A stretch of 64,000 bases of DNA, taken from assembly GCF_003097495.1 (NCBI RefSeq), contig NZ_QEOP01000001.1, positions 1 through 64,000 of the forward strand. Reading direction: 5' to 3'. Shown piece by piece: positions 27,353-36,785 of this stretch (positions are counted from its first letter, which is position 1; each line of letters opens with the position of its first letter). The notes beneath the pieces are model-generated. The model did not search any database. It worked only from the letters and a program-made list of their open reading frames with translations, and was not told the DNA's origin. Made by a program: the position numbers and the translations under genes. The stretch is from Amnibacterium flavum. Its GTDB lineage: Bacteria > Actinomycetota > Actinomycetes > Actinomycetales > Microbacteriaceae.

Positions 27353-27486
27353 AGCAACACAGGGTCGTCCCTGCACGACCAGGGCACGACTCGAGCGGCC
27401 CCTCCTACGCGGCCTATCGCTTCGCGGGAGGGGCTGCTCATCTCTGTGGGTCAGTGGGCAGCGCGGCGTATCGTTCTGAGGCGCGA

Positions 27487-27539
27487 GGCACAAGGCACAA
27501 GGCACAAGGCACAAGGCACAAGGCACAAGGCACAAGGCA
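27487..27539. repeat. Heptanucleotide tandem repeat (GGCACAA)7
   Basis: Seven uninterrupted GGCACAA copies plus a partial GGCA lie in the gap between the convergent secreted-protein gene and the HEPN-like gene, ending six bases before the latter's stop codon. A slippage-prone microsatellite of this purity is unusual for this GC-rich background. Confidence 0.9.
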
Positions 27540-34361: not shown

Positions 34362-34390
34362 TTGACACCTCTCGGAGACGGACGTACTTT
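34362..34390 (+). promoter_or_regulatory. Near-consensus housekeeping promoter
   Basis: TTGACA, 17 nt, TACTTT. It is the best -35/-10 match in the window and drives the surface-protein genes that begin at 34442. Confidence 0.75.
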
Positions 34391-34441: not shown

Positions 34442-35338
34442 ATGAGTGATCGCAGCGAAGCGCGCGAGTTCTCATCCGTGCTGCGCGCCGTTCTCCTGGG
34501 CGCCGGACTCGCCGCGACCTGGTTCGCCGCCTCGGCACTCCTCGACTCCCCCGCCGCGCACGCTGCCGAACCCACGGGCGCGACCGCCCCGGCGGGCCTG
34601 CTGTCCTCCACTGACGGGCTGCTCGACGGTGTCGACGGAGCGCTCGACTCGGTCGGCGGAGTCGTCGACGAGGCTCTCACCGCCGTCGGCAGCACGGTCG
34701 ACTCCGACCTCGCGTCCTCCGTCGTCACGCCGGTCGCCGAGACCGTCGACACGGTCGTCGTCGACGTCGTCGCTCCTCTTCCCGTCGTCGGCCAGCCGGT
34801 CGTCGACGCCACCGGCACCGCGCCGGTGACAACAATCCTCGCCCCGGTCGCGTCGACGATCGATTCCGCGCTCGGGGCGACTGGGGAGGCCGTCGGCGAC
34901 GCGGGGGGCGTCGTCGACGGCCTGCTGGATGTCGACCTTCCGTCGACCGTCACGCCGATCGTCGGCAGCCACGGACCCGTCGTCGGGATCTCTCTCCTCG
35001 CTGCATCGGCGGGCGTTCCGAACACGGATGTCGCCGCTCTCCCGACCCGGACCCCGTTCACCGCTCCGGCGGCGAGCGCAGCGCTCGTGGCCGTCGAAGC
35101 GGCTCTGCCTGCTTCTCCGGCGGTCCCCGCCCCGGCGCCGGGAGGCCCCCGCGGGCCGCTCGACGTGCCCACGGACGGCACCACGAACCCGTCGAGCTCC
35201 GGCTCCGGGTTCGCGGCTCCCGCGGCCACCCTGGGGGATCGCTACACCTCTGCTTCCGCCTCGGCGGTCACCGGCTTCGCCGACAGCGCCTGGGCGCTCG
35301 TCTCGGCAACCTACGACACCGACACCTCTCCTGACTGA
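34442..35338 (+). CDS. Exported Val/Ala/Asp-rich protein of unknown function
   Basis: 298 residues. An N-terminal basic segment and hydrophobic core (VLLGAGLAATWFAASALL) end at AHAAE, a signal-peptidase site. The mature chain is a low-complexity series of short GL-LD-GVD-AL-DSV units with alternating Val and Asp, then a Pro-rich stretch. No cysteines, no anchor and no enzymatic motif are present. GGAGG lies nine bases before the ATG and a near-consensus promoter is upstream. It precedes the chaplin-like gene on the same strand, so both may be expressed at the surface together. Confidence 0.7.
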   Translation: MSDRSEAREFSSVLRAVLLGAGLAATWFAASALLDSPAAHAAEPTGATAPAGLLSSTDGLLDGVDGALDSVGGVVDEALTAVGSTVDSDLASSVVTPVAETVDTVVVDVVAPLPVVGQPVVDATGTAPVTTILAPVASTIDSALGATGEAVGDAGGVVDGLLDVDLPSTVTPIVGSHGPVVGISLLAASAGVPNTDVAALPTRTPFTAPAASAALVAVEAALPASPAVPAPAPGGPRGPLDVPTDGTTNPSSSGSGFAAPAATLGDRYTSASASAVTGFADSAWALVSATYDTDTSPD

Positions 35339-35429: not shown

Positions 35430-36731
35430 ATGTCCAGAATCACCTCACGGGTGCTCTACGGAGTGCTCTTCGCCGGGGGCCTCACGCTCCTCGGCGCAAC
35501 CGCCGCCAACGCGGCCGAGACCACCGGGGACGACTCGGTGCTCGGCGGAAGCCAGGTGGTGCCCGGCATCACCGCACCGGTCTCGGTCGACGGCCTCGCG
35601 GTCAGCCTCTTCGGCGACAGCAGCACCGCTGCTCCCGCCGAGCAGGCACCCACCGCTCCCGTCGACACCGCTCAGCCGGCAACGACCGACGGCTCCTATT
35701 CGGTCGCCGGAGGGACGCAGGTGGCACCCGCCGTCGCGCTGCCCGTCACTGTCGAGAACACCGCGGTGTCGGTCTTCGGTGACAGCAGCACCGGAGGGTC
35801 GTCCGATCCCGCCTCGATCCCGACCGCACCGGCACCCGCTACGGCGCCGGTGACTACCGGGGACGACTCGATCGGCGGCGGAAGCCAGGTCGCGGGCGAC
35901 GTGTTCGCTCCCATCTCGGTGTCGGGCGTCGCGCTCGCCCCGTTCGGCGATGCGACCAGCGGCGGAACCTCGACCGCTCCGGCCGCTTCGTCTCCGGCGG
36001 GCGGCAACGCGTCGACCGGCGGTGAGGACTCCACGCTGGGCGGTACGCAGCTCGTACCGGCGATCACCGCGCCGATCTCGGTGGGCGGTCTCGCGATCAG
36101 CCTGACGGGTGACAGCAGCACCGGTGGGACGGGAACCCCCGCCACGACCGGCAGCACCGGCACCGGAACCGGGGCCGTCACCGACGGTGACGACTCCACC
36201 CTCGGAGGCACGCAGGTCACGCCCGTCGTCACCGCTCCCGTTTCCATCGGCGACCTCGCCGTCAGCCTGACCGGCGACAGCAGCACCACCGGAACGGGAA
36301 CGACCGGCACCACCGGCAACACCGGCACCGGAACCGGGGCCGTCACCAATGGTGACGACTCCACCCTGGGAGGAACGCAGATCGCTCCGATCGTCACCCT
36401 CCCCGTCACGATCGGCGACATCGCGGTCAGCCTCACCGGCGACAGCGAGACGACCGACCCGGGAACGCCGGTGACCCCGGGCGAGGAGCCCGGTGAGGAG
36501 CCGGGAACGGACCCGGGCACCACGCCGGGTACCACGCCGGGAACCGGAGTGACGACGCCGACGACGACCGGATCGGGCACGGCTCTGGCCTCGCTCGGCA
36601 CGCGTCCCGCCGGAGCCTCGCTCGCCTCGACCGGCGCGGACGTCGCCGGCCTGTCGATCGCGGCGCTGATGCTGCTGTTCCTCGGCGGCGCCTTCGTCGC
36701 TGCGAAGCGGCGCACGGTTTCGAAGCGGTAG
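35430..36731 (+). CDS. Sortase-anchored surface protein with six chaplin-like repeats
   Basis: 433 residues. The signal peptide ends near TAANAAE (residue 30). Six modules of about 55 residues begin near residues 34, 88, 145, 199, 254 and 309. Each has the core pattern DDSxLGGxQVxPxITxPVSV followed by xGLAVSLxGDSST. This resembles the hydrophobic strand core of streptomycete chaplins, without their cysteines. Gly/Thr linkers separate them. The C-terminus has LASTG (residues 398-402), a helix and a KRRTVSKR tail, a sortase signal of the LAXTG class used by long chaplins. AAGGAG lies seven bases before the ATG. A chaplin-like coat role is inferred. Confidence 0.75.
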   Translation: MSRITSRVLYGVLFAGGLTLLGATAANAAETTGDDSVLGGSQVVPGITAPVSVDGLAVSLFGDSSTAAPAEQAPTAPVDTAQPATTDGSYSVAGGTQVAPAVALPVTVENTAVSVFGDSSTGGSSDPASIPTAPAPATAPVTTGDDSIGGGSQVAGDVFAPISVSGVALAPFGDATSGGTSTAPAASSPAGGNASTGGEDSTLGGTQLVPAITAPISVGGLAISLTGDSSTGGTGTPATTGSTGTGTGAVTDGDDSTLGGTQVTPVVTAPVSIGDLAVSLTGDSSTTGTGTTGTTGNTGTGTGAVTNGDDSTLGGTQIAPIVTLPVTIGDIAVSLTGDSETTDPGTPVTPGEEPGEEPGTDPGTTPGTTPGTGVTTPTTTGSGTALASLGTRPAGASLASTGADVAGLSIAALMLLFLGGAFVAAKRRTVSKR

Positions 36732-36756
36732 CACCCGACGCTTCGAAAGAAGGAGC

Positions 36757-36785
36757 CCTCCCCGCACATGCCGTGCGGGGAGGGC
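36757..36785 (+). terminator. Terminator after the chaplin-like gene
   Basis: CCCTCCCCGCAC-ATGCC-GTGCGGGGAGGG is a 12-bp perfect stem. Confidence 0.8.

Follow-up and report, generated by a model that had tools for sequence, protein, structure and literature searches.

Diverged chaplin-like repeats in a sortase-anchored-type protein of Amnibacterium flavum and a conserved partner gene upstream

Within the stretch of Amnibacterium flavum DNA analysed here (64,000 nt, hereafter the window), two neighbouring forward-strand genes, A (34442–35338) and B (35430–36731), encode a secreted protein and a protein of the sortase-anchored type with six chaplin-like repeats. As judged by sequence comparison, the gene B protein belongs, in strongly diverged form, to a repeat family of the Micrococcales that is homologous to the chaplins, the textbook coat enabling Streptomyces hyphae to grow into the air; the relationship is real at the level of the family and goes beyond a look-alike pattern. 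We consider it fairly probable that the two genes make up a bicistronic surface system whose products, an SrtE-anchored, chaplin-like multi-hairpin protein and a secreted partner, serve surface coating or adhesion.

Anatomy and anchoring of the gene B protein

Gene B runs from the ATG at 35430 to the stop codon at 36729–36731 and encodes 433 aa. The signal peptide (35430–35513; cleavage predicted at ANA↓AE) lies in a strongly conserved region, R7...ANAAETTGDD (alignment A4). Profile A1, 38 positions long and made from family repeats, was searched over the whole 3.57-Mb genome and detected the repeats at 35520–35633 (E 1.4e-15), 35685–35798 (E 7.3e-16), 35853–35966 (E 1.0e-12), 36015–36128 (E 1.2e-14), 36180–36293 (E 3.4e-15) and 36345–36458 (E 5.5e-16). 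Neither this profile nor a Pfam scan yielded a significant second chaplin-type gene elsewhere in the genome and, as every copy scores between E 5.5e-16 and 1e-12, a chance origin of the repeats was rejected. The first-pass annotation, made from the letters alone, had given the same reading frame and repeat number, and both hold. Its ‘~55-residue modules’ hold as a spacing: the repeats start at residues 31, 86, 142, 196, 251 and 306, that is, 55, 56, 54, 55 and 55 residues apart. The conserved module itself, however, is about 38 residues long, the remainder being linker. The hydrophobic core of the module is constant and the Thr/Gly/Pro-rich linkers are variable, and a stalk of the same Thr/Gly/Pro-rich kind leads from the last repeat to the LASTG motif at residue 398.

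The mean hydropathy of the repeat cores is 0.8–1.2, as compared to 0.65 for chaplin cores, and the linkers are polar. An AlphaFold model of low confidence (pLDDT 42) shows the repeats as strand-turn-strand units joined by disordered linkers. A simple aggregation score gave 0.75 for the repeats and 0.66 for their own shuffles and, given this weak contrast, amyloid formation should not be assumed. Searches of PDB sequences and of plasmids returned nothing useful.

The protein ends in LASTG, a membrane helix and a basic tail (36621–36728), which score 29 bits with NCBIfam NF058582, a model of the LAVTG-type sortase signal (cut-off 27); the sortase signal proposed earlier is thereby borne out. A signal peptide, at least two modules and a LAXTG-type sorting signal, the features that characterise a long chaplin, are thus all present. 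The genome encodes five sortases. One of them is a class E enzyme (NF033747, 164.9 bits, cut-off 160), located at L001:1183–1971, which corresponds to about 640.8–641.6 kb of G000:C1, and flanked by crgA-like and pabA-like genes; class F is the best model for the remaining four, one of which exceeds the class F cut-off. With LASTG in gene B and a class E sortase in the genome, both features looked for in a class E substrate are found, and by analogy with the long chaplins, class E anchoring would be the expected route. The first-pass annotation was to be given up if neither a chaplin-model match nor such a sortase turned up; as the sortase is present and chaplin homology holds at family level, the case for giving it up is incomplete.

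Relationship of the repeats to chaplins

Taken on its own, the gene B protein is not recognisable as a chaplin. The PF03777 search that the first-pass annotation had called for gave no match in either of two scans, and membership of that family on the protein’s own score was rejected. A chaplin profile that we built from 55 Streptomyces domains gives it 3.5 bits, and a profile made from the six gene B repeats alone stays at noise level against chaplins. The link to chaplins is therefore transitive, via relatives. Members of the same bacterial family (G168, G142, G106, G430, G479, G529 and G411) and of other families (G296 and G521) score above the PF03777 cut-off within their repeats, at model positions within 3–54 of 57 (mostly about 5–46), and the homologue in G168 is 55% identical to the gene B protein. 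The Streptomyces chaplin profile matches most gene B homologues at E 1e-7 to 1e-32, leaving the nearest relatives, L010 and L011, unmatched; the gene B protein is among the least chaplin-like members of its family. In the reverse direction, the repeat-family profile recovers Streptomyces chaplins.

Could the resemblance be convergent? The gene B protein might be no more than a wall-anchored spacer or adhesin, with an alternating Val/Thr, Pro and Gly pattern that arose independently of the chaplins, as might be expected of a low-complexity composition and as the noise-level scores of this protein with chaplin models would allow. Since E-values from profile searches are optimistic on low-complexity proteins, we used controls that destroy residue order. 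With the Streptomyces chaplin profile, 272 of the 291 single family repeats score above 8 bits, as compared to 5/1455 shuffled and 3/291 reversed ones. Profile–profile alignment (hhalign) of the repeat family with the Streptomyces chaplins gave a probability of 94.9% (E 4.5e-8) over 31 gap-free columns that include the GN turn, whereas the maximum probability among 60 column shuffles was 18%. The consensus of the 291 repeat copies, TSGDDGILGGTQVVPVVTAPVTVGGNAISVLGDSSSTG, aligns without gaps to the chaplin core GVLSGNVVQVPVHVPVNVCGNTVNVIG, with 12/27 positions identical. Furthermore, when 396 genomes of the phylum were scanned blind with the repeat profile, mainly chaplin-bearing genomes came back: 17 matches, of which four come from the same order, 11 from the chaplin-rich group f25/g112 (which we infer to be Streptomyces) and two from elsewhere. 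Because shuffled and reversed repeats and column-shuffled profiles lose the score, purely compositional convergence was rejected, and we regard a spacer or adhesin unrelated to chaplins as very unlikely. The chaplin resemblance noted in the first pass consequently stands as family-level homology, carried by hhalign and the reciprocal searches, and does not extend to a PF03777 match of gene B alone.

Of the chaplin domain, the family module retains the initial two-thirds, made up of the first GN, the strand that contains Pro, the turn with the second GN and the next strand. The first GN position is mostly GT and the second GN is kept in 241/291 repeats; the third GN motif is missing along with the last third of the domain, so the family lacks the three GN motifs at turns that were looked for as a chaplin feature. 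All six gene B repeats have lost the GN turn as well, and in the AlphaFold model (pLDDT 42) the turn sits where this GN was lost. Both chaplin cysteine positions are also missing: any Cys is found in only 3/291 family repeats, and the absence of cysteines noted earlier for the modules is confirmed by a count of zero for the whole gene B protein. Two cysteines are typical of chaplins, not universal. Cys-free modules are tolerated in ChpE (PMC7766987) and in the C-terminal domain of ChpB (PMC13251363); both are still called chaplins with GN motifs, and the modules of the gene B family are shorter.

The closest known counterparts are the long chaplins ChpA–C of Streptomyces (PF03777), which resemble the gene B protein in having a signal peptide, tandem hydrophobic modules, a LAXTG-type signal and a class E sortase in the genome; the layout reported for them (PMC13251363) agrees with that of structured repeats and disordered linkers in the low-confidence AlphaFold model of gene B. 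The differences lie in the number of modules (six in gene B and up to 13 in its relatives, as compared to two), in the truncated, Cys-free module that lacks the third GN and has lost the GN turn, and in the fixed partner gene upstream on the gene B side. The anchored gene B protein is a known type of protein in an altered form.

Gene A and a possible two-part surface system

A protein search found gene B homologues in 81/249 genomes of the family, and the repeat profile matches 77 family genomes, about 31% of those sampled; these counts refer to samples and not to all genomes. The named relatives (41–60% identity) are all Microbacterium, and for this reason the host cell is probably a non-filamentous rod. 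Genomes of group g85 are nearer to the Microbacterium gene B relatives than is the genome of gene B itself. Among 39 homologues the sorting motif is LAxTG in 33 and LPxTG in two. The chaplin-like gene of L124 (G068) and of L047 (Microbacterium sp. Se63.02b) is distributed over several reading frames; it may be broken there, or the repeats may contain a sequencing error.

The spread of the repeats over tens of related genomes was overlooked in the first pass, as was the conserved partner directly upstream. Gene A encodes a secreted, Val/Ala/Pro-rich protein of 298 aa. Its predicted signal peptide (34442–34564) has a putative cleavage site AHA↓AE in which A39 and A41 are invariant (alignment A2), and its conserved C-terminal tail, ...SATYDTDTSPD-COOH, is encoded at 35276–35335. 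In 39/39 loci a counterpart of gene A lies directly 5' of the gene B homologue. Counterparts were taken as the Val/Pro-rich ORF immediately upstream, regardless of how it ends; a Pro-Asp C-terminus is nevertheless found in 39/39 of them, as compared to 1/304 other low-arginine ORFs of the same loci, and the tail consensus is DDxLPSSPxxDTDxSPD-COOH. Pfam and NCBIfam hold no credible family for gene A or 11 relatives, and AlphaFold predicts a helical or disordered protein with low confidence (pLDDT 49). To judge by its sequence, the protein has a variable, helix-prone, Val/Pro-rich body and a fixed C-terminal tail.

Of 77 genomes matched by the B profile, 63 also match the A profile (odds ratio 60, Fisher p 1e-32, an optimistic value since the sampled genomes are related). 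On reading, 11 of 12 inspected B-only genomes do carry a tail-bearing gene upstream (G006, G008, G068, G072, G087, G152, G163, G168, G178, G193 and G199), and G232 has none upstream of its gene B. The two genes are 91 nt apart and on the same strand here, and 87–134 nt apart in relatives. The pair is also present in other families of the Micrococcales, with tails FDPGSSPD (f2), DPGSRPD (f4) and DISVAPD (f8) and, more weakly, ...SPA or ...SPG endings in f120. No convincing member near chaplins was returned by the A profile outside the order. In four genomes (G049, G053, G123 and G215; loci L119, L120, L121 and L122), the gene after A encodes a protein of the anchored type whose repeats are of another, Asp-rich kind, and the chaplin module is thus not obligatory for A. 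An example of these repeats is DDGLVDSLVGDSIVDPLIGDDGAVAPVTDAV; the display module looks to have been swapped.

The surface system that we favour would work as follows. Signal peptides would export both proteins, which are probably co-transcribed, and the class E sortase would cut B at LAS-T↓G and join it to peptidoglycan. B would then display six diverged chaplin-type β-hairpins on flexible Thr/Gly/Pro-rich linkers. These hydrophobic hairpins may bind each other or surfaces, an association that might be amyloid. It could raise the hydrophobicity or adhesiveness of the cell surface in the manner of long chaplins on Streptomyces hyphae, though with no disulfide-closed domain. A would be a secreted co-component that may contact B physically, its fixed tail ...TDxSPD-COOH probably being a docking or processing signal for co-assembly with B that another protein or enzyme would read.

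The division of labour between the two proteins could be different. An outer layer or fibre, adhesive or protective in nature, could have A as its structural subunit and B as a mere wall anchor whose repeats dock A. This would agree with A being the more constant partner, given the Pro-Asp end of 39/39 counterparts and the anchored proteins with other repeats that follow A in four genomes; A has, however, no recognised structural domain and its predicted fold is helical or disordered, at low confidence, and we regard this arrangement as unlikely, if worth keeping in mind. Alternatively, A could stand outside the surface layer and be devoted to helping B through export, folding or processing, for instance in the way of a chaperone or of a factor that positions the sortase. 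Its place directly upstream of B, its N-terminal membrane or signal segment and its short, fixed, recognition-type C-terminal peptide would all suit a helper, but the cleavable-looking signal peptide with its invariant A-x-A suggests release rather than membrane residence, and we find such a role improbable. Returning to A as a co-component of a coating or adhesive surface, a bolder version would be a bicistronic surface-assembly system of the Micrococcales at large, with the ...SPD-COOH tail as the recognition signal for assembly and with exchangeable anchored repeats, usually chaplin-type and sometimes Asp-rich; this we put forward tentatively, as something just short of an even call.

Two published systems bear comparison. 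CwpA and CwpB of Actinoplanes missouriensis depend on SrtE for their anchoring to the wall, are hydrophobic and combine disordered regions with small β clusters, features that recall the expected anchoring, the hydrophobicity and the predicted layout of the gene B protein; unlike for the gene B family, their authors conclude that chaplin domains are absent, and the portion of the paper at hand describes no A-type partner (PMC13251363). A chaplin-like protein was reported in 2013 from Arthrobacter chlorophenolicus, a rod-coccus that does not form spores and likewise belongs to the Micrococcales, on blastp only, with neither architecture nor partner gene described; the authors suggested that attachment may predate aerial growth as a chaplin role (PMC4255298). 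Given this protein and the repeats in about 31% of sampled family genomes, the earlier expectation that a surface coat of this kind would be a novelty holds only in part. In the open-licence literature, we found no paper on chaplins in Microbacteriaceae. To our knowledge nothing has been reported on gene A, and both the fixed-tail family to which it belongs and the A–B two-gene unit appear undescribed. The distribution of the pair suggests that the two-part surface system is widespread.

Multi-module, Cys-free relatives of the chaplins, equipped with wall-anchor signals, occur in many Micrococcales; this supports the attachment-first idea of 2013 and opens it to testing in simple, fast-growing rods. 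The A family provides a new point of entry: that a secreted protein evolves fast yet keeps its C-terminal peptide constant suggests that this peptide is specifically recognised at the actinobacterial surface. If true, an A–B system with exchangeable repeats would mean that simple actinobacteria have chaplin-type surface layers unconnected with aerial development.

Surroundings of the gene pair

A possible promoter of the pair (34362–34390, forward strand; TTGACA, 17 nt, TACTTT) was picked out by eye 80 nt 5' of the gene A start; it is weak and absent from the output of a consensus scan. In the Microbacterium loci L039–L046, conserved DNA words such as GTATCGTC, TTGAAGGT and CTGTGGATAA occur 100–400 nt upstream of gene A and are possibly a promoter or regulator site. 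On the 3' side of gene B, a 14-bp GC-rich hairpin (36755–36785, not assigned to a strand) separates the pair from galT; its T-run is on the minus strand only, so termination of B at this site is uncertain. We rejected a functional link of the pair to galM/galT/galK, as this neighbourhood is kept only in L010 and L011 and the hairpin lies between B and galT. Elsewhere in the window, between two converging genes, the heptamer AGGCACA is perfectly repeated 7.7 times at 27486–27539 and is a candidate variable-number repeat.
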